Source: Acrocarpospora macrocephala
GTDB taxonomy: Bacteria > Actinomycetota > Actinomycetes > Streptosporangiales > Streptosporangiaceae
NCBI RefSeq assembly: GCF_009687865.1
Contig: NZ_BLAE01000029.1
Location: 1 to 64,000, forward strand
Length of the DNA stretch: 64,000 nucleotides
Direction: 5' to 3'
The notes below the pieces were generated by a model. That model was given only the letters and a program-made list of their open reading frames with translations. It did no database searches and was not told the DNA's origin. This document shows positions 7,113-23,472 of this stretch, one piece after another; positions within the stretch are counted from its first letter, which is position 1; the number at the start of each line of letters is the position of its first letter. Position numbers and translations under genes: made by a program.

Positions 7113-7382
7113 ATGCGAGTCAGGTACTTGGGTTCAGGATCGGGCGAGGGCGGGTCTCCCACGGTGTTCGCGACCGATCGAGGAACCCTGATCATTCAGG
7201 GGTACAAGGTCACGGACCGGCAGGCGCTCGCGGACATCGGTGAGGTTCCGGGGCATGAGGACTTCGTCGAGATCCCGATCGAGCTCCTGGAGTTCGTGAA
7301 CAACCCGCTGGACGCCGACCCCCGGAGGAACCGGCAGCGGGAGACGTCGACCGAGGGGCAGCCGCCGCTGGAGGAGAGTTGA
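7113..7382 (+). CDS. Small module protein A1, unknown function
   Basis: 89 residues with no recognised family name. The core SPTVFATDRGTLIIQGYKVTD and the later FVEIPIELLEF match the 68-residue protein at 23266-23472 (SPTLYKTDRGSWVVQGWSI, AVEIPDRLVPF), so the two are paralogues heading modules A and B. Each directly precedes a DUF6879-like gene. The Ser/Glu-rich tail after residue 70 is absent from the module B copy. GGAG lies upstream of ATG 7113, and the stop overlaps the next start (TTGA). By position it resembles the small DUF397-type proteins that partner WhiJ-like XRE regulators, but homology is not shown. Confidence 0.75.
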   Translation: MRVRYLGSGSGEGGSPTVFATDRGTLIIQGYKVTDRQALADIGEVPGHEDFVEIPIELLEFVNNPLDADPRRNRQRETSTEGQPPLEES

Positions 7383-7903
7383 GCCTTGTCAGCGGGCCGG
7401 CGTTCGTCGACCTCTTCCGTAGCTTCGCGCATACCGCACGGCGCTTGGAGACGCGGGACTGGTATGACTCGCCGAGCGAGTACGAGCCGATGCGGCGGTT
7501 CCTGGCGGGTGAGCCCGAGGACATGGCCTGGTTCCAGAACTGGACCGGGATCGTCAAGCAGGCCGTCACGGACGGGCGGACGATGCGGCGGGTTCGGGTT
7601 GTGTCGTTGCCGTTGAGTGACTACGCCCGGTACGGGCTGGACCTGGCTCGGCACAACAACGCGGCGGGAGAGGACATCCGTTATCTCGACCGACGGGACG
7701 CGGCCGGGCTACCCGAGTTCGACTTCTGGGTGTTCGACTCCAACCGGGTCGCGAAGCTGCACTTCACCGATGATGACAAGCTTCTGGGCGCGGAGATCAT
7801 CACCGGTCCCGCTGTGGTCGTGGAGTGCTCGGCCGCCTTGGACGACGCCTTCCACCGGTCGGTGTCGCGGGATGAGTTCGCCGCCCGGATTCAGAGCCTC
7901 TGA
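7379..7903 (+). CDS. DUF6879-like protein of module A
   Basis: 174 residues from a TTG start that overlaps the previous stop. The sequence RRLETRDWYDSPSEYEPMRR, FLAGEPEDM, RRVRVVSLPLSDYARYGLDL, AGEDIRYLDRRDA and FWVFDSNRVAKLHFTDDDKL is the pattern of DUF6879 proteins found next to DUF5753 XRE regulators in actinomycetes. The biochemical role is unknown; the family is thought to act with the adjacent regulator, as DUF397/BldB-like proteins do with WhiJ-like proteins (inference). Clear paralogue at 22754-23269. Confidence 0.8.
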   Translation: MSLVSGPAFVDLFRSFAHTARRLETRDWYDSPSEYEPMRRFLAGEPEDMAWFQNWTGIVKQAVTDGRTMRRVRVVSLPLSDYARYGLDLARHNNAAGEDIRYLDRRDAAGLPEFDFWVFDSNRVAKLHFTDDDKLLGAEIITGPAVVVECSAALDDAFHRSVSRDEFAARIQSL

Positions 7904-7926
7904 AAGTGGTGGGGTAGAGGTAGCGG

Positions 7927-8799
7927 GTGAGCAACGTTCATCGCGAGCGGGAGGCCCTCGGCGGGCGGCTTCGTGAACTGCGCCGGGCGGCGGGTCTCAC
8001 CGGTCGTGAGCTGGCGGAGGCGCTCGGCTGGCCGCCGTCGAAGGTCTCGAAGCTGGAGACCGGCAAACAGACGCCCACCGAGCAGGACTTCATGGGCTGG
8101 GTCGAGGCGACAGGGGCCAGCGGTGAGGATCGTGATTCGCTGCTGGCCGCGCTGCGCACCCTGGAGTCACGTCATGCCGAATGGCAGCGGGTTCTCCGTG
8201 GTGGTATGCGCCACCACCAGAGCGAGTGGGGCGAACACGAACAACGTGCTGGCCTTCTTCGCGTCTTCGAACCCTGCTACATCCCCGGCCTCGTACAGAC
8301 CCCGGGCTACGCCCGGGCGCGCGTGGCGGAGGCCATCTCCATGCACGGCCTGGCCAACGACATCGACGAGGCCGTACGCGCCCGGATGCTCCGCCAGGAG
8401 GCGCTCTACGACAGCCGCAAGCGGTTCCACCTTGTCGTCAGCGAGGCCGCGCTGCGGTATCGGCTGTGTTCGCCGGAGGTCATGCTCGGGCAGCTCGATC
8501 GGCTGGTCACCGCCTCGACGCTGCCGAACGTCCGGCTGGGCGTCATCGGCTTCGACACCGCGTACGTGACGGCACCGAAGCACGGCTTCTGGCTGTTCGA
8601 CTCCGAGCGGGTTCTGGTGGAGACGTTCACCGCAGAGCTCAACCTCGCGCAGCCGCACGAGATCGAGGCTTATTCGCGGATCTTCCGATCGCTGGCCGGA
8701 ATGGCCTCCTACGGTTCGGACATGCGGGCGATCGTCACCCGCGTGATGGAGGACCTACGGGCCGGGTTGCCCGACGGCGAAACCTCCGACGAGGAGTAG
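7927..8799 (+). CDS. XRE-family regulator with DUF5753 domain (WhiJ-like), module A
   Basis: 290 residues from GTG 7927. Residues about 9-65 form an XRE helix-turn-helix (GGRLRELRRAAGLTGRELA, WPPSKVSKLETGKQTPTEQD). The rest is a DUF5753 domain with the typical YIPGLVQTPGYARA, ARMLRQEALY, FHLVVSEAALRYR and LPNVRLGVIGF motifs. These proteins are DNA-binding developmental or pathway-specific regulators in actinomycetes. It follows its DUF6879 partner by 23 bp and precedes the radical SAM operon, which it probably controls. Its paralogue in module B is encoded at 21916-22773. Confidence 0.9.
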   Translation: MSNVHREREALGGRLRELRRAAGLTGRELAEALGWPPSKVSKLETGKQTPTEQDFMGWVEATGASGEDRDSLLAALRTLESRHAEWQRVLRGGMRHHQSEWGEHEQRAGLLRVFEPCYIPGLVQTPGYARARVAEAISMHGLANDIDEAVRARMLRQEALYDSRKRFHLVVSEAALRYRLCSPEVMLGQLDRLVTASTLPNVRLGVIGFDTAYVTAPKHGFWLFDSERVLVETFTAELNLAQPHEIEAYSRIFRSLAGMASYGSDMRAIVTRVMEDLRAGLPDGETSDEE

Positions 8800-8831
8800 C
8801 GGCGGATTTCTCGGCCGAACGGGTCGAGAGG

Positions 8832-8927
8832 ATGTTTCGGAAATCCCGAGAACATTGCTGGATGCCGCTTTGCCGCACATGTCACCCTCACGGCGTCATC
8901 CCCGTAATGCTCGGAGGCACTCCGTGA
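8832..8927 (+). CDS. Short Cys-containing ORF overlapping the radical SAM start
   Basis: A 31-codon frame starts MFRKSREHCWMPLCRTC and ends in a TGA that overlaps the GTG of the radical SAM gene (GTGA). It contains three cysteines. AGAGG touches the ATG directly, which is too close for a good ribosome-binding site, so translation is doubtful. It is noted because module B also has a short Cys-containing ORF just upstream of its radical SAM gene. It could be a peptide substrate, a leader for coupling, or chance. Confidence 0.3.
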   Translation: MFRKSREHCWMPLCRTCHPHGVIPVMLGGTP

Positions 8928-10084
8928 GCAAGGTCGTCGTTCCGCTCCTTGAACCCGCTGCTGTGGCCGCGTTGCCGCCGCGTGCGCAGGAGGTCGTGGA
9001 GTACCGCAAGTCCGGGCTATCCCTCAACCACGTTCAAGGCTGCCCGCTGGACTGCGCGTACTGCATTCGCCACACCTACGGCCTGTGGGACTCCCGCAAG
9101 CCGACCGCGCTGATGTCGGACGCGGAGGCCGTCGAGCTGCTGGTGAGGCACCGCTACTTCCGGCCGCACACGACGCCGTTGCAGATCTTCAACCGGGCGA
9201 CCGATCCGCTGCTGCCCGGGGTGAAGGACCATCTGTTCGTCTGCCTGGAGGACCTCGACGGCAGGGGCCTGACCAACCACATCCTGATCATCACCCGGTT
9301 CATCCTGAAGCCCGAGGACCGCGAACGGTTGAACGCGTTGGCGAACCTGAAGGTCACGCTGCTGTTCACCTACTCCGGTATCACCGACAAGCGCATCGAG
9401 CCGTTCGCCTCCAGCATCGCGGCCGTGTCGATGAAACTCGCCAGCGAGCTACGGCCGCGCCGTTATCGGACGGTCTTCTACTGGCGCCCCCTTGTCCCCG
9501 GCCTCAACGACAGTCCGGAGCACCTCGCCACGGCCGCCGAGCTGTCCAAGCACGCGGACGCGGCCGTCTTCACGGGGCTGTTCTACCGGGGCGAGATCGC
9601 CGACTACTACAAGGCCAACGGCCTGCCCGAGCCCTACGAGGGCACCGCCCGCCGCAAGATCGTGCCCGAGACACTGGAACAGCGGGTCCTCGAGGCGTTC
9701 GCCCATGCGGAGGGTTCGGCCGTGCTGTTCCGCAAGACCTCATGCGCCGTGGCCTACGCCCACGGGCTACCGGACTACAACGGGCACTACGGCATCCGGG
9801 AGCTCTGCGACATATGCCCGGTCCGACAGCTCCAACTCTGCGCGGGAGCACACAACATTCCCACGGCACGTCAGCTTCAAGAGGCCGTCGTGGACCTGCC
9901 CGAGGCGGCAGGGTTGATGGTGCTCGACGTCACCGAGCGGGCGGCGCAGGTCGAAGGACTCCCGGACGAGCAACCGCGGTACTTCCTCCAGCACCGGTTC
10001 GCCTTCCAGATCCACGACGCCGGGCATCCGCACCTGCTCAACCGCCATGGACGCGCCGAGATCGGATGGGAACAGCCCGCATGA
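8924..10084 (+). CDS. Radical SAM enzyme of module A (unassigned subfamily)
   Basis: 386 residues from GTG 8924, preceded by GGAGG. The [4Fe-4S]/SAM site CPLDCAYC (CxxxCxxC) is at about residues 38-45. A distal Cys set, CDICPVRQLQLC, lies near residues 301-312 and may bind a second cluster. Motifs such as LQIFNRATDPLLPGVKDHL, FILKPEDRERL and FYWRPLVPGLND are seen between them. The overall look recalls spore-photoproduct-lyase-like or DNA/RNA-acting radical SAM proteins more than peptide maturases, but no specific family is certain. It is translationally coupled (ATGA) to a DnaQ-type exonuclease and sits in an operon with a nucleotide-kinase homologue, suggesting a nucleotide or nucleic-acid substrate (inference). 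Confidence 0.85.
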   Translation: MSKVVVPLLEPAAVAALPPRAQEVVEYRKSGLSLNHVQGCPLDCAYCIRHTYGLWDSRKPTALMSDAEAVELLVRHRYFRPHTTPLQIFNRATDPLLPGVKDHLFVCLEDLDGRGLTNHILIITRFILKPEDRERLNALANLKVTLLFTYSGITDKRIEPFASSIAAVSMKLASELRPRRYRTVFYWRPLVPGLNDSPEHLATAAELSKHADAAVFTGLFYRGEIADYYKANGLPEPYEGTARRKIVPETLEQRVLEAFAHAEGSAVLFRKTSCAVAYAHGLPDYNGHYGIRELCDICPVRQLQLCAGAHNIPTARQLQEAVVDLPEAAGLMVLDVTERAAQVEGLPDEQPRYFLQHRFAFQIHDAGHPHLLNRHGRAEIGWEQPA

Positions 10085-10677
10085 ACACCGACCAGCTCTG
10101 GACCAGTCACCGCTACGCCGTCGTGGACGTCGAAGGCAACGGTCAGCGTCCGCCGGACCTTGTGGAGATCGCGATCGTCCCGATCGAGAACGGAACGGTC
10201 GGCGAGCCCTTCTCGTGGCTGGTGAAGCCACCGCGACCGATCACCTCGATGGCCCGGCGCTTCCACCGGATCGGAGACGAGGAGGTGGCGGCGGCGCCGA
10301 GGGTGGCCGAGGTCGCTGACGAGATCCGCAAGGAGCTCGACGGCGCGGTCATCGTCGCCCACAACGCGCACGTCGATCTCGACGTGGTCACCCGCTCGCT
10401 CCCAGGCTTCAGCCCGATCGAGGTCGTCGACACATTGAAGGCCGCCCGCCGTCTGGCACCCGGTCAGGTCTCCTACAAGCTCGGGAACCTCGTTGATGCC
10501 TTCGGCCTAGCCGAAGGCATCACTCCCGACCTGCGCCCGCACCGAGCCGCCTACGATGCGATCGTCTGCGCACGGCTCCTCGTCCACTTGGCCACCTCCC
10601 ACTCTGACCCGGGGCTGACGCTGCTCAGCCTGCTGGGAAGGGAAGAACCCGATGACCCGGCTCCGGCCCTTTTCTGA
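10081..10677 (+). CDS. DnaQ-type 3'-5' exonuclease domain protein
   Basis: 198 residues. The DEDDh exonuclease signature is complete: VVDVEGNG (DxE, residues 14-21), HNAHVDLDVV near 95-104, and HRAAYDAIVCARLL near 156-169. Family members remove 3' nucleotides from DNA or RNA using two metal ions. The ATG overlaps the stop of the radical SAM gene, and the end overlaps the kinase gene by 26 bp, so all three are likely made together. No polymerase or other domain is attached. The substrate is unknown; module B has an EEP-family phosphoesterase instead. Confidence 0.88.
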   Translation: MNTDQLWTSHRYAVVDVEGNGQRPPDLVEIAIVPIENGTVGEPFSWLVKPPRPITSMARRFHRIGDEEVAAAPRVAEVADEIRKELDGAVIVAHNAHVDLDVVTRSLPGFSPIEVVDTLKAARRLAPGQVSYKLGNLVDAFGLAEGITPDLRPHRAAYDAIVCARLLVHLATSHSDPGLTLLSLLGREEPDDPAPALF

Positions 10678-11320
10678 CCATCAACGAGGCCTGTTCATCT
10701 CGATCGACGGGCCGTCCGGCGCGGGCAAGTCAACGATCCTCGCGCACCTGTCCCAGCTCCTCATCGCTGACGGGGAGCAGGTCCATACGACTGCCGAGCC
10801 GTCCACCGGGCCCATCGGAACACTCGCCCGCAACCTCACCGAAACCGTCAGCGGACCGGCCCTCGCCTGCCTGTACAGCGCCGACCGCTACCACCACCTC
10901 GAAAGCGAGATTCGGCCTCGGCTGGAGGCCGGCGAGATCGTCCTCTGCGACCGGTACGTGCCGTCAGGCCTGGTCATGCAGCGGTTCGACGGAGTCGACC
11001 CCGCCTTCCTGTGGAGCCTGAACGTCCACGCCGACCGCCCTGATCTGGCCGTCGTCCTGGAAGCCGACCCGCAGACAATCGCCGCCCGCCTGGAGTCCCG
11101 CGGAGCACACAACAGATTCCAGCGCGCACCCGGCTCCTCCCACGCAGAATCCCACTTCTACCGGCAGGCCTGTGACCGCCTCATCCAGGCTGGATACGAC
11201 GTCCTGCGCGTCGACTGCACGAGCAGGACCCCCGACCAGCTCGCCCAGATCATCCGCGACCGGCTCCAAGCCTTCTTCGCCGTCCCTGAACAGGAGACCA
11301 CCGATGCCCGCACCTGGTGA
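10652..11320 (+). CDS. dTMP-kinase-like P-loop protein, module A
   Basis: 222 residues from ATG 10652 with GGAAG upstream. It begins GLFISIDGPSGAGKST (Walker A about residues 19-27), then TTAEPSTGPIGTLAR and CDRYVPSGLVMQRFDG, equivalent to the DRY motif of thymidylate kinases. The LID region is RGAHNRFQRAPGS. The motif after DRY (SGLVMQRFDG) differs from housekeeping Tmk (usually SSxAYQ) but matches the module B protein (SSLVLQRLDG), so both appear to belong to a separate subfamily. It may phosphorylate a modified nucleotide rather than dTMP (inference). Confidence 0.85.
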   Translation: MTRLRPFSDHQRGLFISIDGPSGAGKSTILAHLSQLLIADGEQVHTTAEPSTGPIGTLARNLTETVSGPALACLYSADRYHHLESEIRPRLEAGEIVLCDRYVPSGLVMQRFDGVDPAFLWSLNVHADRPDLAVVLEADPQTIAARLESRGAHNRFQRAPGSSHAESHFYRQACDRLIQAGYDVLRVDCTSRTPDQLAQIIRDRLQAFFAVPEQETTDARTW

Positions 11321-12146
11321 CACCTTCCTCATCGGAGGCGACCTCCCGGTCAACCGGCTCGGCCTTGGAACCATGTCCCTCACTGGGCCGGGGACCTGGG
11401 GAGAACCAGCCGACAAGGGAGAAGCGCTTCGCGTGCTTCGCACCGCTGTCGAACTTGGCGTGAACTTCCTCGACACCGCCGACGCATATGGACCCCACGT
11501 CAGTGAGCGCTTGATCGCCGAGGCGCTCCACCCCTACCCCGCTGGACTCGTCATCGCCACCAAGGGTGGCCTGACCCGGCAGGGGCCGAACAGGTGGGCA
11601 CCCTGCGGCCGTCCCGAGTACCTCCGGCAGTGCACTGAAATGAGCCTGCGACGCCTCCGGCTCGACACGATCGACCTCTACCACCTCCACCGGGTCGACC
11701 CCCTTGTGCCCCTGGACGACCAGCTCGGGACACTCGCCGATCTCCAACGCGAGGGGAAGATCCGTCACCTGGGGCTGTCCAAAGTCAGCATCGAAACCAT
11801 TGAAGCCGCACGTGGACTCGCCGAGATCACCACCGTCCAGAACGCCTTCAACCAGCAAGACCGCACCAGCGAAGATGTTCTCGACTACTGCACCGCGCAT
11901 CGCATCGGCTTCATCCCCTACCGCCCGCTCGGCAAGGGCCGACTCGCCGGTCCCGATCCGACCGCACCCTGCGATGGCACGAAGGCCACCGGAGGACAGC
12001 TCGCACTGTCGTGGCTGCTCCACCGATCTCCCGTCGTCATCCCGATCCCCGGAACTTCCAACGCCACTCATCTTCGGGAGAACGTCCAAGCGGGTCACCT
12101 AGACCTGCCCGGCGCCCTGCCCGCCACACCCGCCTCGGTGGTCTAG
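11304..12146 (+). CDS. Aldo/keto reductase
   Basis: 280 residues from ATG 11304, with AGGAG upstream; the first 17 bp overlap the kinase gene. The AKR barrel is recognisable from RLGLGTMSLTG, NFLDTADAYGPHVSERLI (catalytic Asp/Tyr), IATKGGLTR, TIDLYHLHRVDP (His), KIRHLGLSKV and the cofactor-binding PIPGTSNATHLRENV at the C-terminus. It should reduce a carbonyl with NADPH. It ends the module A operon; module B has no counterpart. The substrate is unknown. Confidence 0.9.
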   Translation: MPAPGDTFLIGGDLPVNRLGLGTMSLTGPGTWGEPADKGEALRVLRTAVELGVNFLDTADAYGPHVSERLIAEALHPYPAGLVIATKGGLTRQGPNRWAPCGRPEYLRQCTEMSLRRLRLDTIDLYHLHRVDPLVPLDDQLGTLADLQREGKIRHLGLSKVSIETIEAARGLAEITTVQNAFNQQDRTSEDVLDYCTAHRIGFIPYRPLGKGRLAGPDPTAPCDGTKATGGQLALSWLLHRSPVVIPIPGTSNATHLRENVQAGHLDLPGALPATPASVV

Positions 12147-12148
12147 CC

Positions 12149-12385
12149 ATGGGCGTACTCGGCTGGACCGGGACAGCCCTTCTGGCCACCTTCTTTATCG
12201 GACTTCTCGGCTGGATGGTCTATCAGCGAGGCAGATCTCGGATCAGCTCATACGCCTCGGCCAGACTCGCGCGCAGCTCCGCCACCTCGGCTCTCAGCTG
12301 CGCGATCTCGGACACGAACACCAAGAATCACGGCAACCAGCCCGGAGATCAACTCGGGCGATCAGTACCAAACCCGACTACGTGA
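12149..12385 (+). CDS. Small putative membrane protein at the island edge
   Basis: 78 codons from ATG 12149, two bases after the reductase stop. The N-terminus GVLGWTGTALLATFFIGLLG predicts one membrane helix; the rest is polar and low in character, ending just before the ppgK fragment. The opposite strand of the same stretch can encode a 32-residue coiled-coil-like peptide (SEIAQLRAEVAELRASL, ending RDLPR), so the coding strand is not settled. Either frame may be a truncated relic. Confidence 0.35.
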   Translation: MGVLGWTGTALLATFFIGLLGWMVYQRGRSRISSYASARLARSSATSALSCAISDTNTKNHGNQPGDQLGRSVPNPTT

Positions 12386-12392
12386 GGAGTTA

Positions 12393-12765
12393 CCACCAGG
12401 GCGTGGTCCTGGTCCTCACCTTCGGCACCGGCATCGGCAGCGCCCTGTTCACGGGCGGCAAGCTGGTCCCCAACACCGAGTTCGGCCACATCGAGATCCG
12501 CGGCAAGGACGCCGAAGCCCGCGCCTCCGACCAGGCCCGCGCAGAGAAGGAACTCAGCTGGGGCAATTGGGCCGGCCGCGTCGAGGAGTACCTCCTCCAG
12601 ATGGAACGCCTGCTTTCCCCGAATCTGATCATCATCGGCGGGGGAGTCAGCAAGAAGGCCAAGAAGTTCCTCCCGGACGTCACCATCAACACCCCGATCC
12701 TCCCGGCCATGCTCCTCAACGAGGCCGGCATCGTCGGCGCCGCCCTGGCCGCCACCGAGAAGTGA
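12393..12765 (+). pseudogene. Truncated second copy of the ppgK 3' end
   Basis: This segment repeats the last 373 bp of ppgK nearly exactly ([19 protein letters not shown] through [17 protein letters not shown] and stop). It lacks the N-terminal phosphate-binding half, so it cannot encode an active kinase. The reading frame is kept, differences are mostly synonymous, and the stop is TGA instead of TAA, which suggests the copy came from a closely related ppgK or a fairly recent duplication. Confidence 0.9.
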
Positions 12766-12916
12766 CCCGTATCCATCCAGATCGGCGTTGGTGACGAGCG
12801 CAATGAGGCGGGTCGCTCATGGCGTCTTATCCTCTGATCAGGGCTACGAGTTTGCCTTCGGGCAGACTTGGTGCCGGTAGCCGCCGCTGGGTGAGCACTC
12901 CCCAGTTTGTGGGCGT

Positions 12917-13531
12917 TCACTTGGCCGGGGCGTCCGAATTTCTGGGGCTTAATTCGGTGAGTGCCAGGGTGGGGTTGTCGGCGAAGAAGCGGATGGTGGT
13001 GACCTGGGCCTGGCGGCCGAGGGGGCGGGTGATGGTAATCGGGTCGGTCAGGTCGACGATCATGTTGGTTTGGGAGGAGACGGCCAGGCTGAGGCGGGTT
13101 CCGGTGACGGTGACCATGCTGGTCTCGTTGTAGTTGCGGGACAGGCGGATGGTGGCGATCTGCTCGCGGGGGATGCGCAGGTCGAAGAAGGCGCCGTAGC
13201 GGAGCCGTAGTTCGGTGGCGGTTACCACGTGGGGGCGGGTGACGCAGGCGGCCATGACCGCGAGGCCGATGAGGATGCCGTAAAGGTCGAGAAAGAGCAC
13301 GGGGAGGCGCAGCGCCTCGGGGGCGTCGATGGCACGGAGGATCACGTCGATGACGACCGTTTCCACGGCCATCAGGATCAGCAGGATGACGAATGTGGTG
13401 GTCTGTTCTTTTGCGTACGCGATCTCGACCGAGCCGGGCGGAACGCCGTTGCGGCGGCGGAGCGCCCAGAGGACCAGGCTGACCATGCCCTTCGCGTCGA
13501 ATCCAGCGATTCTGCGGATGATTGCGATCAT
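12917..13531 (-). CDS. Membrane protein of unknown function, PH-like C-terminal half
   Basis: 204 residues. Two clear membrane helices lie at about 47-68 (TTTFVILLILMAVETVVIDV) and 78-100 (VLFLDLYGILIGLAVMAAC). The C-terminal 100 residues are polar and beta-rich (ATELRLRYGAFFDLRIPREQ, ATIRLSRNYN), similar in style to bacterial PH-domain membrane proteins. The ATG overlaps the MerR stop (ATGA), so it is made with MerR and may be a target or partner of it. Confidence 0.7.
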   Translation of the reverse strand: MIAIIRRIAGFDAKGMVSLVLWALRRRNGVPPGSVEIAYAKEQTTTFVILLILMAVETVVIDVILRAIDAPEALRLPVLFLDLYGILIGLAVMAACVTRPHVVTATELRLRYGAFFDLRIPREQIATIRLSRNYNETSMVTVTGTRLSLAVSSQTNMIVDLTDPITITRPLGRQAQVTTIRFFADNPTLALTELSPRNSDAPAK

Positions 13532-14271: not shown

Positions 14272-14277
14272 GCCCCC

Positions 14278-16948: not shown

Positions 16949-17442
16949 CCGCGTGGGCGTGGATTTTGGTCCAGCGGGTCACCGATGAGCTGGCCGGGCG
17001 GATCACCAGTGGTGAGCTTGCGCCGGGTGCGCCGGTGCCCACGGAGGCCGAATTACAGAACACGCACAGCATTCAGCCCGCGCAGGCGTACTGGATCTGG
17101 CGTCAGCTCCAGAAGCGGCGGCTGGCCCACATGACCCGCGGCCGGGTCCTGGTCGTCGGGCCGCCAGGTGAGCAGTGGCCGTCGATGTGGACACCGCCCA
17201 TTGAGCGGCGGATCGCGGAGGTCGTCGGCGTGCTGGCCAGGCGGATCCGGGCCGGTGAGATCGCCGTGCATGAGCGGGTGGCCACCCAGGAACAGCTGCG
17301 GAGCGAGTTCGGGATCTCCCGCGAGGTGGCCACCGAGGTCAGGTACCGCCTGGAGGATCTGGGCTGGGCCTACAGCATTCCCCACTACGGCATCTTCGCG
17401 GCTCCGGCCGATGAGTGGCCCGTCCAGGGCGGCGGCGAATGA
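16945..17442 (+). CDS. Double-wing GntR-like DNA-binding protein
   Basis: 165 residues; start overlaps the ATPase stop (GTGA). It appears to hold two GntR-type winged helices in tandem: residues about 8-65 (VTDELAGRITSGELAPGAPV) and about 80-150 (VLARRIRAGEIAVHERVATQ, then REVATEVRYRLEDLGWAYSI). No ligand-binding domain is attached. The end, GWAYSIPHYGIFAAPADEWP, matches a signature shared by other GntR-type pieces nearby. Likely a local regulator. Confidence 0.75.
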   Translation: MTAWAWILVQRVTDELAGRITSGELAPGAPVPTEAELQNTHSIQPAQAYWIWRQLQKRRLAHMTRGRVLVVGPPGEQWPSMWTPPIERRIAEVVGVLARRIRAGEIAVHERVATQEQLRSEFGISREVATEVRYRLEDLGWAYSIPHYGIFAAPADEWPVQGGGE

Positions 17443-18284
17443 CGGAGGTGCACAGCGCGGGGACGCCGCAGCTGGACAGAGCCGGTCCGGTTCCGCTGTA
17501 TGTGCAGATCGCCGATCTGGTGGTGGACCAGATCGAGCGCGGGGAGCTGGGGTTGGGGGAGTTGGTTCCCACGGAGACCGAGTTGCTGCGGGCCTATCGG
17601 ATTTGCCGGGGGACCGCGCGGCATGTGCATCGGGAGTTGCGCGAGCGCGGTCTGGTGTACACGGTGCCGGGGACGGGAACCTTCGTGGGGCAGCGGGGCG
17701 TCTCACCCTCGCCGTATTCGATGCCCGCGTACGTGCTGATCGCCCGTGCCCTGGCCACGCTGATCCAGGGCAGCGTGTACCCGCCCAATCGAGCGATCCC
17801 CACTCATGGCGCGCTGAGCAAGCACCATGAGGTCTGTATAGGTACGGCCCGGCGCGCGGTGAAGATGCTGCGGGAAGCGGGCTGGGCGTTTTCCTGTGGG
17901 CCGCGCGGGACCTTCGTGGCACCGTCTGATCAGTGGCCCGATCCTGGCTTGTGGCGCAAGATGATCGCGGTCGCGTGTGGCGCGGACTGGGCTGAAGACC
18001 TGCCCGGGGAAGAACCGCCGGATCTGCGCCGATGGGATGACACGTCCGCGCCGGTCGGCGGGGAGCCGGTCGTGGGCGGGCAGGGCTGCGATCGCGGTCT
18101 CGTCCACCTTAGTGATCTTCCAGCCGACGGTGAAACGAACGGTCCGCCGGGTAGCGTTTCGCCTCTCCAGCCGTTCCAGCAGCTCGTGAGTGGCACCCGC
18201 ACCGCCGATCCGGGTCAGGAGCAGCGTCGATCGCCCCCGGCTCGTGCCAGGGATCCTTCCGTGTCGAGAGTCCAGCCCCGATAA
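17439..18284 (+). CDS. GntR-family protein with aberrant C-terminal tail
   Basis: Starts at ATG 17439, overlapping the previous stop. Residues about 10-85 form a full GntR winged helix (YVQIADLVVDQIERGELGLG, RGTARHVHRELRERGLVYTV, GTGTFV). A second, weaker wing follows (IGTARRAVKMLREAGWAFSC, GTFVAPSDQWP). From about residue 195 the sequence becomes Pro/Gly/Arg-rich and unlike any GntR domain. That part is antisense to a transposase remnant, so the natural C-terminus was probably lost by an insertion. Confidence 0.75.
   Translation: MTEVHSAGTPQLDRAGPVPLYVQIADLVVDQIERGELGLGELVPTETELLRAYRICRGTARHVHRELRERGLVYTVPGTGTFVGQRGVSPSPYSMPAYVLIARALATLIQGSVYPPNRAIPTHGALSKHHEVCIGTARRAVKMLREAGWAFSCGPRGTFVAPSDQWPDPGLWRKMIAVACGADWAEDLPGEEPPDLRRWDDTSAPVGGEPVVGGQGCDRGLVHLSDLPADGETNGPPGSVSPLQPFQQLVSGTRTADPGQEQRRSPPARARDPSVSRVQPR
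18045..18255 (-). pseudogene. Transposase fragment, probably IS1380-like
   Basis: The minus strand keeps one long frame with TRIGGAGATHELLERL, TRRTVRFTVGWKITKVDE and AIAALPAHD. This resembles the segment of IS1380-type transposases where a catalytic Asp-rich strand (RADSAGxTHxFL) is followed by a VGF/VGW strand. Only about 70 codons remain, and the usual D is replaced in RIGGAG. It overlaps the end of the GntR gene on the other strand, marking an old insertion scar. No terminal repeats were identified. Confidence 0.5.
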
Positions 18285-18310
18285 GCTCCACGTGGCAGGA
18301 GCGGGTGGTG

Positions 18311-18865
18311 ATGAAGGGGTGGCCAGGAGTGCAGGAGATCGAGGTCAAGTACCGGTTGCGCGACCTGCCCGCCCTGGAACAAAGCCTCGCTGAACGCGGA
18401 CTGGTTCTCTCCGCTCCGATAACCCAGGACGATCAAGCGTACGCGCGCGTGGATTGGTCCTATGGCCAATCCAAGATCGGTGTGCCGTTCGCTCGTCTCC
18501 GTACCCAGGACGGCCGGCATCTGTTCACGGTGAAGACGCCGCTGGTCAACGAGTTGGCCTGCCTTGAGCATGAATCCGAGGTCGCTGATCGCGACCAAAT
18601 GCACCAGGCGATCATTCAGATGGGTTTTCGTCCGACCGTACGGATCGTAAAGACCCGGCGGACCGCCCAGATGGCCGGGATGGAGTTGTGCGTGGACGAG
18701 GTCGAGCACGCCGGACTGTTCTTGGAGATCGAAAAAGTTCTCGACGCGGGCGAGTCTGGCGCCGTTGCTCAAGAGCGGTTGGACGCATTTGCCCGATCTC
18801 TTGGCGTGGAGCTGGAACGGACCGCCGATACCTACGATTCGCTGGTACGGGCGGCGCTGGTTTAG
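18311..18865 (+). CDS. CYTH-domain protein (class IV adenylate cyclase/triphosphatase-like)
   Basis: 184 residues from ATG 18311 with AGGAG 9 bp upstream; GTG codons at 18305 and 18308 are alternatives. The ExExK signature EIEVKYRL lies at residues 9-16. Later charged motifs, RLRTQDGRHLFTVKTPL and ELCVDEVEHAGLFLEIEKVL, are typical of the triphosphate tunnel fold. Such enzymes cleave or cyclise triphosphates (ATP, thiamine triphosphate, polyphosphate). It converges on the EEP gene with a 4-bp overlap, so it may not belong to module B, though both act on phosphate esters. Confidence 0.85.
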   Translation: MKGWPGVQEIEVKYRLRDLPALEQSLAERGLVLSAPITQDDQAYARVDWSYGQSKIGVPFARLRTQDGRHLFTVKTPLVNELACLEHESEVADRDQMHQAIIQMGFRPTVRIVKTRRTAQMAGMELCVDEVEHAGLFLEIEKVLDAGESGAVAQERLDAFARSLGVELERTADTYDSLVRAALV

Positions 18866-19659
18866 AACAACGGGATATCCCTGCGCTCGGCTATGTCACC
18901 TGTGTCCAGGATGGTGGCGTCGATGTTCAGTGTCAGGGTTTGGGCCGCGTGGTCGGTCAAGGCCTGGTCGCGCGTTTCGTGTAGGTAGGCGCAGGAACTG
19001 ATGCGGTCGGCCAGGGCCTTGCCTACGTGGAGGTAGTCGTAGCGGTAGCCGTCTCCGGTCCGGCCGATCCAGCTGTAGGGCTGGGAGTCGGGCTGGCACT
19101 GGTCGTGGGCGTCGGCCAGTCCGTGCTCCTGGAGGGCGTCCAGGAACGCGAACTCGAACGGCAGGAAGCCCGAATGAAGGGGCCGGTGGGTGCGGGTGAT
19201 CACGTTGTAGTCGCCGCCAAGCACCAGATGGTCGCGGTAGTGCGCGGGTAGTTCGGCGAGGGCGTCCACCACAGAGCCGATGAACCTCTGCTTGCGTTCG
19301 GTCTTGGCTTGGCTGCGATCCCGGGATGGCACATACAGCGCGACGACATAAGTGGCGGGACGGGTGTCCAGCAAGGCGGCGGCGACTCGGCCGGGGATGG
19401 CCACCTCGCGCAGTGGCGGCGCCTGGTCCACGACCGGTATCCGGCTGACCAGGGCGGCGCCTCGGTCGCCGACATCGGGAGTGTTGATCACTGCCCATCC
19501 GGCCTGCCGGAACTGGTCGAGCAGGTAGGTGGTGCCGGTGCCCGCGCTGGTTTCGGTCAGCAGGAAGACGTGTTCGGGCCGGGAAGCGAGCCAGCCGAGC
19601 ATGCGCTCAGCGCGATCACGAGATGCCGCGCCGATGTTGACCGTGAGCACGGAGAACAT
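18862..19659 (-). CDS. Endonuclease/exonuclease/phosphatase-family protein, module B
   Basis: 265 residues. The EEP metal-binding set is present: VNIG near residue 7-10, FLLTETSAG (Glu about 36), VLGGDYNVI (GDxN about 147-152), YRYDYLHV (Asp about 208) and TDHAAQTL (DH, about 236). EEP enzymes hydrolyse phosphodiesters or phosphomonoesters in nucleic acids, lipids or nucleotides. It is 11 bp downstream of the kinase gene in the radical SAM operon and holds the place that a DnaQ nuclease holds in module A. No signal peptide. Confidence 0.88.
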   Translation of the reverse strand: MFSVLTVNIGAASRDRAERMLGWLASRPEHVFLLTETSAGTGTTYLLDQFRQAGWAVINTPDVGDRGAALVSRIPVVDQAPPLREVAIPGRVAAALLDTRPATYVVALYVPSRDRSQAKTERKQRFIGSVVDALAELPAHYRDHLVLGGDYNVITRTHRPLHSGFLPFEFAFLDALQEHGLADAHDQCQPDSQPYSWIGRTGDGYRYDYLHVGKALADRISSCAYLHETRDQALTDHAAQTLTLNIDATILDTGDIAERRDIPLF

Positions 19660-19670
19660 GGTTCGCCCTT

Positions 19671-20273
19671 TCAGGTGGCCAGCAGGTCGAGCCGGTTGAT
19701 CATCGCGGTGACGACGCCGTCAGGGTCCAGATCGCGGCAGTCGATGCGGAACTGCCGCCATCCGCGCCGTCCGAGGGATCGGAACGCCGCGTCGTACAGT
19801 TCCAGCTCCCGTTCCGGCGTCCCGACACGTTCAAGCCGGGAGTTGACGTGGCGTTCATTCAACCGGGTCCGAATGATCGCCGGGTCGTGTTGGAGGTAGA
19901 ACGACATCTCCGGTGGCCGGGCGAAGGCGTTGTAGCGCCAGATCTCGGCCACTTCCATCCCGTCGAGTCGTTGCAGGACCAGGGAGGACTGGACGTAGCG
20001 ATCGCTGATCACCATTCGGCCGCTCTGCAGGGCGGGCAGAATCTCGGCATCGAGGTGGGCGGCCCGGTCAGCCGCGATGGCCAGGGCCAGCGCCCGCCCG
20101 GTCAACCCCGATTCGCTGGAGCGCACGAGCCGCCCCAGTGGGCTGTCGGACGGTTCAGTGGTCAGATGGACGGCTGTCCCCAGCTCGGCGAGCCGTTTGG
20201 CCAGCAGCGCCGCCGAGGTTGATTTACCGACCCCGTTCGGGCCTTCCACGGCGATGAACAGCGGGGACCTCAT
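19671..20273 (-). CDS. dTMP-kinase-like P-loop protein, module B
   Basis: 200 residues; the ATG overlaps the radical SAM stop (ATGA). It begins SPLFIAVEGPNGVGKST (Walker A), then LTTEPSDSPLGRLVR and SDRYVQSSLVLQRLDG. It aligns along its length with the module A protein (shared TTEPS, PxGxL, DRYVxSxLVxQRxDG, and the C-terminal RIDC/RVDC segment) and less well with housekeeping thymidylate kinase. The LID region is NERHVNSRLERVGTPE. Likely a nucleotide or nucleoside-like kinase working with the radical SAM enzyme. Confidence 0.87.
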   Translation of the reverse strand: MRSPLFIAVEGPNGVGKSTSAALLAKRLAELGTAVHLTTEPSDSPLGRLVRSSESGLTGRALALAIAADRAAHLDAEILPALQSGRMVISDRYVQSSLVLQRLDGMEVAEIWRYNAFARPPEMSFYLQHDPAIIRTRLNERHVNSRLERVGTPERELELYDAAFRSLGRRGWRQFRIDCRDLDPDGVVTAMINRLDLLAT

Positions 20274-21373
20274 GCCGATCGCCGGCCGATCTGGAGCAGC
20301 GGCCGGTCGCCGGTCATGGGGCACTGCTCGGCATCGACGTCCCCGATCGCCAGGCCCCGAGAGATCACCGCGGCGGGGCAGCCCTTGCCGCAGGAGCCGT
20401 TGAGGGAGCACGACCTACAGGTGGCAGTGGTGCCCATCTGGAGTATCCCGGCCAGGTCGTAGTCATCCAGCGGCCCGCAGACCTCGCCGTCCAGGATGTT
20501 GCCCACCAGGAAGTCGTCATCGGAGTAGCGCGATTGCGGGGTTCGAGCGGCGAAGACCAGATAGGGGCACACCGCTGTGGCACCATCGGCGAAGACGTAC
20601 ACGAGTGTGCCCGCATCGCAACCAGCGAGGGGAAGGTCGTCGTTGGGGAAACGGATGTGGACCAGGTCCACGCCGCGTTCCCGGAACTGCTCGGTGGTCT
20701 CACGGATGGCCCGCATCTTGTCATCGGCCGCGGCCATCCGGCCCTGACTTTTCACTCCCCGGCCCATCGACGACAGCGGGTTCATCAGCACGTAGGCGGC
20801 GCCCACTTCGACGGCGAACTCGCACAGCGTCGCGAACTCCTCGACGTCGGTGAGTACATTCGGAGTGGACAGCAAACCTTGCAGCAGTCCGGCCCCGGCG
20901 AACTTACGGACGGTCGCCACCGTGAGGTCGAAGGATGCGACGTCGCCCCGGAACTTGCCGTGGCTCTGCGGCCGGAATCCGTCCAGACTTACATTGACGT
21001 GAACGTTGCCCATGGTCGCCAGCTCGGCGATCTGCTCATCAGAGGTGCGGGTGGCGTTGGTGCAGATCCCTACCGGTATCCCGAGGGCGGCGAGGTGGCG
21101 GCAGATTTCCATGATGTCGGGATGCACGAACGGCTCGCCGCCGGTCAGGGTGATCCGCTCCACCCGGGCACGTCGCAGACGGGGAATGACCTTTTCGACC
21201 AGATCGGTGTAGGAGATGTCGCGGCCCTCTTTGATGGAGGACACGAAGCAGTGCGCGCAGTGAAGATTGCAGCGCTCGCTGATCTGTATGAGGGCCTTGC
21301 GACCCTGGCCGCCGACCGAGGTCCTGAAATAGCACGAGCTAGCTGAGGTTTCGACGATCAGGGACTTCCGCAC
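20270..21373 (-). CDS. Radical SAM/SPASM enzyme, module B
   Basis: 367 residues from GTG 21373, chosen for the GGGGAGG 6 bp upstream; an in-frame GTG at 21397 overlaps the peptide stop and is an alternative. The radical SAM motif CNLHCAHC is at about residues 36-43, followed by RITLTGGEPFVHPDIMEICR and LGIPVGICTNATRTS. The C-terminal SPASM-like region has CDAGTLVYVFADGATAVCPY and TCRSCSLNGSCGKGCPAAV, enough cysteines for one or two auxiliary clusters. SPASM enzymes mostly modify peptides, and an 18-codon ORF lies directly upstream. It shares operon position with the module A radical SAM gene but is a different subfamily. Confidence 0.9.
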   Translation of the reverse strand: MRKSLIVETSASSCYFRTSVGGQGRKALIQISERCNLHCAHCFVSSIKEGRDISYTDLVEKVIPRLRRARVERITLTGGEPFVHPDIMEICRHLAALGIPVGICTNATRTSDEQIAELATMGNVHVNVSLDGFRPQSHGKFRGDVASFDLTVATVRKFAGAGLLQGLLSTPNVLTDVEEFATLCEFAVEVGAAYVLMNPLSSMGRGVKSQGRMAAADDKMRAIRETTEQFRERGVDLVHIRFPNDDLPLAGCDAGTLVYVFADGATAVCPYLVFAARTPQSRYSDDDFLVGNILDGEVCGPLDDYDLAGILQMGTTATCRSCSLNGSCGKGCPAAVISRGLAIGDVDAEQCPMTGDRPLLQIGRRSA

Positions 21374-21393
21374 GATCAACCTCCCCAGAGGGT

Positions 21394-21450
21394 TCACGAA
21401 TCGGTGATTTCAGCGGCCTCGAAGGCCGCTTCGCCGCATTGGGTATTCAC
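21394..21450 (-). CDS. 18-residue peptide ORF upstream of the SPASM enzyme
   Basis: The product MNTQCGEAAFEAAEITDS starts at GTG 21450 with a near-perfect AAGGAGGTGGGT ribosome-binding site and ends 20 bp before the radical SAM GTG. The strong site, small size, single Cys, and EAAFEAAE core followed by a short acidic tail make it a candidate substrate peptide (RiPP precursor) of the radical SAM enzyme. It could instead be a leader for translation coupling. It is too short for most gene finders. No known precursor family is recognised. Confidence 0.55.
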   Translation of the reverse strand: MNTQCGEAAFEAAEITDS

Positions 21451-21463
21451 ACCCACCTCCTTC

Positions 21464-21545
21464 CTAGGCCAGCACCTGGAAGATGCGATGAAAGTCCCCG
21501 AAAGGGGGGACAGTGAACACCCAGCCTTCCTGGCGCCTAGTCGGC
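21464..21545 (-). pseudogene. GntR-type wing remnant (short)
   Basis: A minus-strand frame reads RQEGWVFTVPPFGDFHRIF and stops at 21464. It matches the GW-x-F/V-x-G-T-F wing end of the GntR proteins at 16945-18284, with a frame slip after PF. It lies just upstream of the peptide ORF and is probably a decayed regulator piece. Confidence 0.5.
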
Positions 21546-21631
21546 CGCCTGTCCAACTTCATGACATGGATGGGGACCCAAGCACGGCTGGCTCGTTGAT
21601 CCGCTGTATCCCCCGGGGGTGGTCGGGCCGC

Positions 21632-21823
21632 CTACCGGCCGGGCTCCGAACTCGGGCGGGTAGGTGACCTTTCCACGTCTTGGGGCGGCTCGGGCCACAG
21701 GTGCGGAGGTGCCACGAAAGTTCCCCGATAGGGCACGGTTATCACCCAGTTGTCCTGTCGCAGTGATGCGCTGATGGGGAACCGGCGGCGCAACGGGAGC
21801 CCGATGCCAGAGAAGGTCGGCAT
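21632..21823 (-). pseudogene. GntR-type regulator remnant
   Basis: A 63-codon frame contains ISASLRQDNWVITVPYRGTF and VAPPHLWPEPP, the last helix and wing of the GntR-type modules seen at 17870-17940 (LREAGWAFSCGPRGTFVAPS). The N-terminal helix-turn-helix is missing. Whether the short product is made is unclear; an ATG is present at 21823. It lies between the module B XRE gene and the peptide/radical SAM operon. Confidence 0.5.
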
Positions 21824-21899
21824 TGAGCGTCACCTGCGGTATGTCGTCGTTCGGGGGCATAGATCGACGGTAGGAACGGCTGAAGCCGATCGCCAGTGT

Positions 21900-21916
21900 G
21901 TTGCGGAATGTTGCGC
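21900..21916. promoter_or_regulatory. 17-bp element, copy 1 (before peptide/radical SAM operon)
   Basis: GTTGCGGAATGTTGCGC occurs here, at the end of the module B XRE gene, and identically at 23494-23510 before the small protein/DUF6879/XRE operon. On the minus strand each copy lies upstream of one module B transcription unit. It is the best candidate operator for the XRE regulator. Confidence 0.55.
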
Positions 21917-22773
21917 TATTTCGTAGGGGCGAGGTCTTCGATGGCGGCTCTAACCAGACAGCGAGCTGACTCGTCGTAGACCGAGACGCGTCCCAAGAGA
22001 TCGAACATTCGTGTGTACAGTTCGATCTCACTCGGCATGGTCACCTCGATTGAGGCGGTTGGAGTCTCCATCAGAACTAGTCGCTCGTCATAGATCCAGA
22101 AGCCCATGGATGCTACACACGGGCGTTCGATCATCATGGGAATGATCCCAAGCCTGACGTTGGGCAACGATTCGACCGTCAAAATTCGCTCTAGTTGGCC
22201 AATCTGAGTCGCCGAATCGCCGAACCACGTCCGCAATGCCTGCTCCTCAAGCAGCACCTCAAACCGCTTCTCGGTTCGATAGATGATCTTCTGGCGAGAC
22301 ATACGAGCTTCTACGGCCTCGTCAAGGTCGTTCGGAGTATCGAGAAAGTCGATCCAAAACCTCAGCATGGCCGCGGCGTAATCCGGTGTCTGAAAGAGTC
22401 CAGGAATGACGTTGTGTTCGTAGATCCGAAATCGGTTCGTACGCTCATACAACGGCACTGATGTCCGCATAAGCTGTTTCATCCCAGCGCGCGTCCGCCG
22501 TTTATGCTCCTGATACATCGATTCGAGGGCACGGACGCTAGCTAGTAGGTCAGGAACCTGATCTTCCGCATCGCAGATCTGGCACCAGAGGCGAATCTCC
22601 TGCTCGGTTGGTGTCTTGGCAGCGTTCTCCAGCCGACTGACTTTGGTGAAGTGCCAACCAGTTGCATCGGCGAGGGCGCGGCCCGTGATGCCAGCACCCT
22701 TACGTATTTCTCGAAGTCGATTGCCGAGATTCTCAGCGGCCTGTTTAGCCGGGCTAAGTGGGCGAGTACTCAC
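21916..22773 (-). CDS. XRE-family regulator with DUF5753 domain (WhiJ-like), module B
   Basis: 285 residues from GTG 22773, overlapping the DUF6879-like gene by 20 bp; longer frames are less likely. XRE helix-turn-helix at about 12-70 (LGNRLREIRKGAGITGRALA, WHFTKVSRLENAAKTPTEQE). The DUF5753 part has RIYEHNVIPGLFQTPDYAAA, EARMSRQKIIY, FEVLLEEQALRTWFG and LPNVRLGIIPM. It is the counterpart of the 7927-8799 protein. Its codon use is a little lower in GC than the surroundings, consistent with horizontal origin. Confidence 0.9.
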   Translation of the reverse strand: MSTRPLSPAKQAAENLGNRLREIRKGAGITGRALADATGWHFTKVSRLENAAKTPTEQEIRLWCQICDAEDQVPDLLASVRALESMYQEHKRRTRAGMKQLMRTSVPLYERTNRFRIYEHNVIPGLFQTPDYAAAMLRFWIDFLDTPNDLDEAVEARMSRQKIIYRTEKRFEVLLEEQALRTWFGDSATQIGQLERILTVESLPNVRLGIIPMMIERPCVASMGFWIYDERLVLMETPTASIEVTMPSEIELYTRMFDLLGRVSVYDESARCLVRAAIEDLAPTK

Positions 22774-23269
22774 GGTGTGGGATTGCAAGCTTCCAGACAG
22801 CCTCGAAGGCATCCATACAGAGGGCTACATCACCCTGATCAGTGGAGAGCGTCATATCCACGATCAGGCCGTTGCCAGAATAGTGCAAGAAAATGACCCG
22901 TTCACCATCGACTAGGTAGAAGTCGTTGCCCGGCAGTGGGATCGATGAGACGAGTCGTCGGGGTACCCAGCGGATGTCTTCTCCAGCGTTGACCATGGGA
23001 TACGCAATGCTGTACGACCATCTCTGATAGTCGCTGAGCGGCTCCGATACGATTCGTGCCCTACGAACGGCCCTGCCAGCCTTGGTGTGTTGCCGAAGCG
23101 TTGAGCACCACCCCTCAAGCCACTCAAGGTCATCAGGCTCTCCCGCAGCCCACTTGGCCATGTAGGGGAGTTCGGTTTCTGTCCCATACGCGTCTCTCAT
23201 CTCCAGGTGTACGGCGCTGCTCTCGATCGCGTCGAGCAACGCTGTGAACTCCTGGTCCGTGATGCTCAC
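22754..23269 (-). CDS. DUF6879-like protein of module B
   Basis: 171 residues from GTG 23269, overlapping the previous stop (GTGA). Motifs VHLEMRDAYGTETELPYMAK, WAAGEPDDLEWLEGW, RRARIVSEPLSDYQRWSYSI, NAGEDIRWVPRR and FYLVDGERVIFLHYSGN line up one by one with the module A DUF6879-like protein. Function unknown; expected to act with the adjacent XRE regulator. Confidence 0.8.
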   Translation of the reverse strand: MSITDQEFTALLDAIESSAVHLEMRDAYGTETELPYMAKWAAGEPDDLEWLEGWCSTLRQHTKAGRAVRRARIVSEPLSDYQRWSYSIAYPMVNAGEDIRWVPRRLVSSIPLPGNDFYLVDGERVIFLHYSGNGLIVDMTLSTDQGDVALCMDAFEAVWKLAIPHREYSPT

Positions 23270-23472
23270 GAACCGTCCTGGAGGAAGAATGGAACAAGCC
23301 TGTCAGGGATTTCGACCGCGTCCTCCCCCTCGGGGATGTTCATCTTTCGTCGAACCTCCGGATCCATGATCGACCAGCCCTGTACGACCCAACTCCCACG
23401 GTCGGTCTTGTAGAGGGTGGGGCTCTGGTTCGGGTTGCTGCCAGGGTCCTTGGCCACGAACGTTATCTCCAT
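23266..23472 (-). CDS. Small module protein B1, unknown function
   Basis: 68 residues from ATG 23472. The core NQSPTLYKTDRGSWVVQGW and DAVEIPDRLVPFF match the module A small protein, so gene order is conserved from the first gene. The 17-bp element lies 21 bp upstream of its ATG. First gene of the operon small protein, DUF6879-like, XRE. Confidence 0.75.
   Translation of the reverse strand: MEITFVAKDPGSNPNQSPTLYKTDRGSWVVQGWSIMDPEVRRKMNIPEGEDAVEIPDRLVPFFLQDGS

Follow-up and report, generated by a model that had tools for sequence, protein, structure and literature searches.

What holds together a group of genes in which the kinase and regulators are conserved and the catalytic enzymes beside them are not? 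The question is raised by a 64,000-nucleotide stretch of Acrocarpospora macrocephala DNA (hereafter the window; assembly GCF_009687865.1, contig NZ_BLAE01000029.1, positions 1 to 64,000). The window carries two modules, each encoding a regulator trio, a radical S-adenosylmethionine (rSAM) enzyme, a kinase resembling thymidine monophosphate (dTMP) kinases and a nuclease-type protein. Module A spans 7113-12146 on the plus strand, and module B runs from 23472 down to 18862 on the minus strand. We lean toward the view that both belong to a mobile family of minimal nucleotide-modification cassettes, each of which would make an inhibitory analog and carry a matched enzyme that removes it (hereafter the remover).

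Two modules share a kinase and differ in their catalytic partners

In module A, the trio is followed by rSAM-A (8924..10084), a DnaQ/RNase_T-type exonuclease (10081..10677), kinase A (10652..11320) and an aldo/keto reductase (AKR; 11304..12146), all on the plus strand. The exonuclease matches PF00929 (E = 2e-18), and its start, read from the translation, is an ATG that overlaps the rSAM-A stop. Kinase A matches PF02223 (E = 2.2e-28) and overlaps the end of the exonuclease gene, while the PF04055 match of rSAM-A is under the cut-off (22.8 of 29.5 bits). The AKR (PF00248, E = 2.7e-61) is a probable module member; AKR-like sequence also follows the type A cassettes of loci L071 and L073, and an AKR gene follows the rSAM and exonuclease genes of L172.

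In module B, rSAM-B (20270..21373; PF04055, E = 1.6e-24), which carries a CNLHCAHC motif and a Cys-rich C-terminal third, precedes kinase B (19671..20273; PF02223, E = 2.5e-28) and an ExoIII-like nuclease/phosphatase of the EEP family (18862..19659), all on the minus strand. The EEP protein matches PF03372 at 25.4 bits against a cut-off of 24.5, TIGR00195 under its cut-off (E = 1e-12) and the ExoIII structure 6lpm (E = 1.7e-13). The first-pass annotation listed these genes of module B but missed a CYTH (triphosphate-tunnel) gene on the plus strand (18305..18865; PF01928, E = 3.8e-14), which is convergent with the EEP gene and overlaps it by 4 nt. In A and B alike, the gene after the rSAM gene can start at an ATG overlapping the rSAM stop, which for kinase B is the start read from the translation. 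The starts of the AKR and of both rSAM genes were deduced, and both rSAM genes probably begin inside their longest open reading frame (ORF), not at its start.

Apart from the short Cys-containing ORF discussed below, the genes originally assigned to the two modules were confirmed at their positions. The regulators and kinases are paralogous, as proposed: blastp identities between A and B are 40% for the small protein, 32% for the DUF6879 protein, 42% for the XRE regulator and 40% for the kinase (E from 3e-11 to 3e-69). Blastp gave no match with E below 1 between the two rSAM enzymes, nor between the two nucleases, in agreement with the earlier assignment of the rSAM enzymes to different subfamilies and of the nucleases to different folds. 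The proposed common gene order stands only as far as the trio and the rSAM gene that follows it. Beyond that, module A has the order rSAM-exonuclease-kinase-AKR and module B the order rSAM-kinase-EEP.

Cassette kinases recur next to radical SAM genes

Kinase A served as the query against 200 genomes of the same family, and every match at 98.9 bits or more was counted, giving 47 loci (the family sample). At 43 of these, an rSAM gene is found no more than 2 kb from the kinase (8 of type A, 12 of type B, 21 of type C and 2 of type D), as judged with phmmer queries taken from these cassettes; unrelated rSAM types would be missed, and broken copies are scored as present. The remaining four comprise three lone kinases (L067, L068 and L069) and a truncated kinase followed by a NUDIX gene (L096). 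The three lone kinases occupy one syntenic place, where another genome of the genus (L066) has a decayed rSAM-kinase-EEP set. L066 is one of nine further fetched loci, mostly fragments (L066 and L101-L108), that were left out of the family count, L104 being counted later in the class sample. Of the nine, L066, L104, L106 (at a distance of about 1.7 kb), L107 and L108 have a whole or partial rSAM gene near the kinase; none was found in L101, L102, L103 and L105.

The class sample comprised 394 genomes searched with kinase profile A1 at E = 1e-38. It gave 23 loci in 20 genomes, 8 of them already counted, and one of the 15 new matches, L168, is a housekeeping thymidylate kinase (Tmk) by its motifs EPG and SSLAYQ. 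All 14 new cassette-kinase loci have an rSAM gene within 2 kb (4 of type A, 7 of type C, 1 each of types B and D, and L104, where the rSAM gene is of a different type and none of the known removers is present). Since most of the kinases used to build profile A1 are rSAM-linked, the class sample leans to such kinases, though the loci are new. With L168 excluded, the cassette kinase is present in 19 of the 394 genomes and is thus sporadic. A hydrolase or glycosylase-type gene accompanies it at 44 of the 47 family-sample loci and 13 of the 14 class-sample loci. By our own arithmetic, from 30 rSAM matches in the window's 12.1-Mb genome, rSAM adjacency by chance would be 1-2%. The first-pass annotation had regarded rare kinase-rSAM neighborhood, or grouping of the kinases with housekeeping Tmk, as signs of coincidence; the counts above speak against the first sign, and the tree described below against the second.

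Among the matches listed for named genomes, all 9 good matches of 12 loci have an rSAM gene (partial in L110, in two frames in L113), and the 3 weak ones do not; the nine come from Lentzea, Actinophytocola, Amycolatopsis, Streptomyces (twice), Saccharothrix, Phytohabitans, Micromonospora and Micromonosporaceae. In IMG/VR, on contigs as classed by that resource, a cassette rSAM gene is present at 13 of 28 loci, all among the 14 best kinase matches, of which L133 is the exception. In this set, L126 and L127 appear to be near-duplicates, and L123 is as long as phage SF3.

The cassette kinases stand apart from housekeeping Tmks

Kinases A and B are members of the thymidylate kinase superfamily (PF02223, 99.7 and 99.5 bits against a cut-off of 27), and the nearest solved relatives of the cassette kinases are dTMP kinases (E = 5e-31). 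The G, K, D and R columns are invariant in an alignment of 20 rows, with the P-loop intact and the DRY motif kept. They share these features and the Pfam family with housekeeping Tmk but differ from it in tree position and in the nucleotide-site motif.

In a tree of 76 rows, which leaves out L066 and identical rows, 11 housekeeping Tmks of related genomes form one group (support 100/100), set off by a branch of 2.73 changes per site, and the 65 other rows fall outside it; kinase A lies in group A (100/99). Fourteen Tmk loci were fetched for this comparison and 11 were used, since L191 is a cassette kinase and no row came from L192 or L193. The midpoint of this unrooted tree puts the Tmk group on the side of 17 type B kinases, and five type B-like kinases fall among types A, C and D. 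A single origin of all cassette kinases is not settled by the tree.

The housekeeping rows carry EPG and DRYxDSxLAYQ in all 11 cases, with SSLAYQ as the usual form and SNLAYQ or STLAYQ in one each. The cassette rows carry EPS or EPT instead, with a few QPS and one ETT. The Tyr of the AYQ motif is replaced by Leu, Met, Val or Phe in every cassette row shown and is unreadable in the broken L066. Since the same Tyr is located near the sugar 2' position in Mycobacterium tuberculosis Tmk, an altered sugar in the substrate is a reasonable guess.

Radical SAM types and exchangeable partner genes

About five rSAM types pair with the cassette kinase, and the partner genes across cassettes encode DnaQ-like, ExoIII-like, NUDIX, CYTH, AlkA-fold and AlkZ-like proteins. 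The earlier suggestion of a modular system whose catalytic parts can be exchanged, and which makes or removes a modified nucleotide, agrees with this distribution and can be extended to the NUDIX, CYTH and glycosylase-type partners.

Type A rSAM enzymes have the CxxxCxxC motif and four more invariant Cys residues (alignment A2, 11 rows). The predicted structure of rSAM-A (pLDDT 82, pTM 0.85) resembles pyruvate formate-lyase (PFL) activase, SkfB, spore photoproduct lyase and viperin, while a sequence search of the PDB gave no match up to E = 1 and a search of phage records none up to E = 1e-5. Beside the type A cassette of L071 (genome G062), a second fragment of a type A exonuclease and kinase occurs at 6326-6863. 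Type B rSAM enzymes share an N-terminus, 'SCYFRT...RKAL', in all 19 rows including that of the window, and a CYTH gene is present at all 12 type B loci of the family sample. The window's genome has a third cassette, L055 (contig C11, 92000-111000), of type B with EEP and CYTH genes and an rSAM protein 92% identical to rSAM-B. A type B-like cassette on a plasmid of Streptomyces sp. NBC_00690 (L154) is followed by a gene annotated as MazG-like.

Types C and D, for which the Pfam calls come from one representative each, have rSAM enzymes of the B12 type (B12-rSAM). At the 21 type C loci of the family sample, the B12-rSAM and kinase genes are accompanied by an AlkA-fold protein at 21, a NUDIX gene at 18 and a CYTH gene at 2; neither NUDIX nor CYTH was found in L078. 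The first gene of type C gave no Pfam match in the two copies scanned. Its assignment to the AlkA/OGG1 fold comes from a profile match (E = 2e-8) and from a model with pLDDT 91 (Foldseek E = 3e-8, TM 0.61-0.68 among the top 50), and the Asp at the presumed catalytic place is invariant in 10 rows. The two type D loci of the family sample combine the kinase with a B12-rSAM and an AlkZ-like glycosylase. In L156 (genome G512, contig C55, 1-16000), a type C cassette with a partial kinase match stands back to back with a type A cassette.

Three kinase-less loci, L174-L176, of the six such loci with a type A rSAM, carry thymidylate synthase (TS)-like and nucleoside diphosphate kinase (NDK)-like genes directly before the rSAM and exonuclease genes. 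Pfam identifies the TS-like gene in all three (PF00303) and the NDK-like gene in L174 and L176 (PF00334), that of L175 being recognized by eye. These partners are the best single clue to the substrate and suggest a pathway that handles pyrimidine nucleotides and leads to triphosphates. L174-L176 are possibly a separate pathway.

Transfer of module A and carriage by plasmids and a phage

Module A is 93.3% identical over 4.2 kb to a copy in a genome of another genus (G108), against 78% for the DNA around the housekeeping tmk gene. The corresponding values are 84% against 71-74% for G062 and 77% against 64-70% for G016. Judged by these identities, the comparison shows a recent transfer of module A between genera. 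The module is flanked by a direct repeat of 376 bp, formed by the 3' end of a ROK-family gene. The left copy (5921..6296, plus strand) belongs to an upstream gene matching PF00480. The right copy (12393..12768, plus strand) is 97.3% identical to it, with a ROK match just under the cut-off, and a 300-nt core was also found. This repeat suggests that a 6-kb segment was inserted at the ROK-family gene.

Streptomyces phage SF3 carries a type C cassette, which follows the lysis genes and directly adjoins the integrase gene; because of this integrase, SF3 would be temperate. Five Streptomyces plasmid loci were opened, and the rSAM gene stands before the kinase gene in four and as a fragment in one.

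Relation to known nucleotide pathways

The closest published parallel is the thmA-C cluster of Photorhabdus asymbiotica, which encodes an rSAM enzyme, a nucleoside kinase and a nucleoside triphosphatase (mBio 2025; PMC12691670). According to that report, thmA-C made 4'-thiothymidine in E. coli, thmC alone gave resistance to 4'-thiothymidine and not to azidothymidine (AZT), and 4'-thiothymidine is incorporated into DNA. The adjacent rSAM, kinase and phosphohydrolase genes of thmA-C, compared here through the published description, are found in our cassettes as well; its surroundings vary between species and its product is of thymidine type. There are also differences. The remover of module A is an exonuclease-family protein and not a triphosphatase, thmB is reported to be homologous to the nucleoside kinase AbmG whereas the kinases here are dTMP-kinase-like, and thmA-C is reported from Enterobacterales and Vibrio whereas our cassettes are in actinomycetes (PMC12691670). 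The precedent shows the rSAM/kinase/triphosphatase logic working with three genes.

A second parallel is PDC-M51, a candidate defense pair listed in PADLOC. Four cassette kinases match its M51B component (2e-11 to 5e-4; 2e-11 for kinase A and 5e-10 for kinase B), and M51A is matched by three B12-rSAMs from types C and D (1e-4 to 1e-9). All of these scores range from weak to moderate, neither rSAM-A nor rSAM-B matches M51A, and PADLOC states no function. No publication under the name PDC-M51 was found in the open-access literature searched.

Viperins are rSAM enzymes that act on nucleotides and yield 3'-deoxy-3',4'-didehydro-nucleoside triphosphates (ddhNTPs). According to the PADLOC descriptions, kinases are associated with or fused to some viperins and prokaryotic viperins (pVip), as in our cassettes, to which a nuclease, NUDIX, CYTH or glycosylase-type gene is added. 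rSAM-A matched neither pVip nor any other PADLOC profile. rSAM-B matched pVip over core residues 38-146 only (3e-18), and more strongly TIGR03962 over residues 39-357 (3e-27), in libraries that differ in size. We thus rejected membership of the viperin/pVip group, since rSAM-A is unmatched and the match of rSAM-B is confined to the core and weaker than those to other rSAM families.

Oxetanocin A is made by OxsB, a B12-rSAM, with the phosphohydrolase OxsA. Oxetanocin A and albucidin (albA and albB) resemble our cassettes as few-gene, rSAM-made nucleoside analogs, OxsB being a B12-rSAM like those of types C and D, but no dedicated dTMP-kinase-like partner is shown for them. A gene annotated as thymidylate kinase is found five genes ahead of albA but does not belong to the minimal albucidin set (PMC7074753).

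Few-gene rSAM pathways to nucleosides and nucleotides are thus already known, and PDC-M51 already pairs an rSAM with a kinase. The word 'undescribed' in the first-pass annotation was too strong for this kind of system, with thmA-C published (PMC12691670) and the PDC-M51 pair listed. What appears new, as far as the open-access literature was searched, is the exchangeable family: about five rSAM types that have one specialized kinase group in common, combined with interchangeable removers directed at DNA or nucleotides, in actinomycetes, plasmids and a phage.

Regulator trio and other local features

The trio of module A, on the plus strand, consists of a small protein with a TDRG....QG core (7113..7382), which neither Pfam nor NCBIfam matched up to E = 0.1, a DUF6879 protein (7379..7903; PF21806, E = 1.6e-54, 184 bits) and an XRE + DUF5753 regulator (7927..8799; PF13560, E = 8.5e-17; PF19054, E = 1.7e-36). 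The trio of module B, on the minus strand, consists of the small protein (23266..23472), the DUF6879 protein (22754..23269; PF21806, E = 2.7e-57) and the XRE + DUF5753 regulator (21916..22812; PF19054, 99 bits). The HTH_31 and DUF5753 architecture of regulator A is the sole basis for the label 'WhiJ-like control' given earlier to the modules.

The trio had been taken as a defining part of the modules, which we rejected since it is generic across the genome and not tied to type B in general. The genome has 12 DUF6879 and 31 DUF5753 matches, and the complete trio occurs at five other fetched places (L210-L214), where the called genes match neither cassette kinases nor cassette rSAMs. It stands upstream of type A at 7 of 8 family-sample loci, and an XRE gene is within 4 kb at 3 of 4 class-sample type A loci. 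With type B, it was seen only in the window and in L056, about 5 kb upstream of the rSAM gene; before the rSAM gene of the C11 copy, only a piece of the small protein was found.

An 18-codon ORF with Cys codons before rSAM-B had also been counted as a shared part. In three frames upstream of the 19 type B rSAM genes, of which 17 stretches besides the window remained after that of L154 proved misplaced, no counterpart was seen by eye. Even the C11 copy, despite its closely similar rSAM protein, has none. We therefore rejected the ORF as the precursor of a ribosomally synthesized and post-translationally modified peptide (RiPP), having found no conserved counterpart beside rSAM-B by eye; larger or distant precursors were not searched for. 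The 'peptide-nucleotide' product proposed in the first-pass annotation falls with this ORF.

Adjoining module B, in divergent orientation, an AAA_21 ATPase gene (23934-25148) matches HEC-01A of PADLOC (E = 3e-150) and is a candidate anti-phage gene by that library. Rfam gave no match in window positions 1-34000, and the window has no tRNA gene.

Proposed function and competing explanations

In the pathway that we propose, the rSAM enzyme would remodel a pyrimidine nucleotide, most likely of thymidine type, and the specialized dTMP-kinase-like enzyme would supply the phosphorylated form or raise its level. The remover would hydrolyze the product or take it out of the producer's own pool or DNA; this part may be played by the DnaQ-like exonuclease in module A, by the ExoIII-like EEP protein and the CYTH protein in module B, and by NUDIX, CYTH, AlkA-fold or AlkZ-like proteins elsewhere. 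Such a pathway would yield an inhibitory nucleotide or nucleoside analog, and different rSAM enzymes may give different products, with the remover exchanged to match. The remover would then act where the analog does harm: in the triphosphate pool (NUDIX and CYTH), at the DNA 3' end (DnaQ-like and ExoIII-like) or at the base in DNA (glycosylases). The gene families, their order, association and exchange, and the transfer of module A can be read directly from the DNA. Among the solved relatives of rSAM-B is BlsE, an enzyme of nucleoside-antibiotic synthesis (5e-14), in line with the proposed pathway.

Several observations weigh against this proposal. We infer the substrate, product, activity, toxicity and self-protection role from the genes themselves. 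The best solved relative of rSAM-B is the peptide-modifying SkfB (2e-15). Some of the rSAM neighbors counted above are broken: the rSAM gene is split in L065 and interrupted in L155, and both the rSAM and kinase frames are interrupted in L064. The lone kinases of L067-L069 come from three genomes of the window's genus, including the window's own. The reverse link, from rSAM to kinase, is weaker than the link from kinase to rSAM. A search of the 394 genomes with rSAM-A gave matches in 20, some of them remote or fragments (only rSAM-A pieces in L177-L180); six loci (L170 and L172-L176) have the rSAM and exonuclease genes without a kinase gene, and the kinase is broken in L169 and L171. Type C rSAM genes occur in 10 of the 296 class genomes searched, three of them without an adjacent kinase (L207-L209). 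Since such kinase-less loci exist for types A and C, the rSAM gene and remover seem to persist without the kinase in some lineages.

A broader version, which we offer only tentatively, is a plug-and-play chemical immunity, in which one kinase group combines with any of about five rSAM classes to give a range of non-natural (deoxy)nucleotides, each with its own remover (exonuclease, triphosphatase or base glycosylase), and is traded among actinomycetes, plasmids and integrating phages as an antiviral or antibacterial arsenal. A possible but rather doubtful alternative is anti-phage defense in particular, a special case of the proposed pathway with another target, in which an intracellular triphosphate analog would block phage DNA or RNA synthesis as the ddhNTPs of viperin do, with the remover protecting the host. 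Features that point to defense are the mobility, the cassette beside the integrase of phage SF3 and those on Streptomyces plasmids, the PDC-M51 matches and the HEC-01A-like ATPase beside module B; moreover, a nucleoside monophosphate kinase would be more useful for an intracellular triphosphate than for a secreted nucleoside. However, phage and plasmid carriage is compatible with antibiotic clusters too, rSAM-A lacks any PADLOC match, and rSAM-B matches pVip over the rSAM core only. The 4'-thiothymidine precedent leans to antibiosis. With present evidence, antibiotic and anti-phage use cannot be told apart.

Repair of DNA is an improbable explanation. Here rSAM-A would reverse a thymine lesion in the manner of spore photoproduct lyase, the nucleases and glycosylases would be the matching excision enzymes, and the kinase and NUDIX proteins would clean or refill the nucleotide pool. 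The partners do have repair-type folds, and spore photoproduct lyase is among the structures that the rSAM-A model resembles (Foldseek E from 3e-4, TM 0.44-0.47); however, PFL activase and SkfB rank ahead of it by E-value, with similar TM. For rSAM-B and the B12-rSAMs, no repair enzyme was matched among the results seen, and the altered kinase site, the TS-like and NDK-like partners, the sporadic presence (19 of 394 genomes) and the transfer are unlike housekeeping repair.

Still less probable is hypermodification of DNA bases. In phages with hypermodified thymines, such as glutamyl- or putrescinyl-thymine, enzymes of the helix-hairpin-helix fold, P-loop kinases and rSAM enzymes act on 5-hydroxymethyl-deoxyuridine. 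The joint occurrence of an AlkA-fold protein, a kinase and an rSAM in type C, the phage included, and the TS-like genes at three kinase-less loci recall this chemistry. However, the cassette kinase comes from the dTMP-kinase family, which acts on mononucleotides, types A and B carry nucleases instead, and most cassettes were seen, sporadically, in bacterial genomes. Coincidence of generic regulator, rSAM and kinase genes holds for the regulator trio, which is generic, but is refuted for the core by the adjacency counts, the rSAM gene, the kinase gene and a remover gene being found side by side again and again across many genera, those named above included.

If the proposed pathway is correct, any rSAM gene together with this kinase and a remover would be a genome-mining rule for new nucleoside analogs, which are of proven value as drugs. 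From the kind of remover one could predict the site at which the analog acts, and viperin-like antiviral nucleotides and nucleoside antibiotics would be tied to one exchangeable design.

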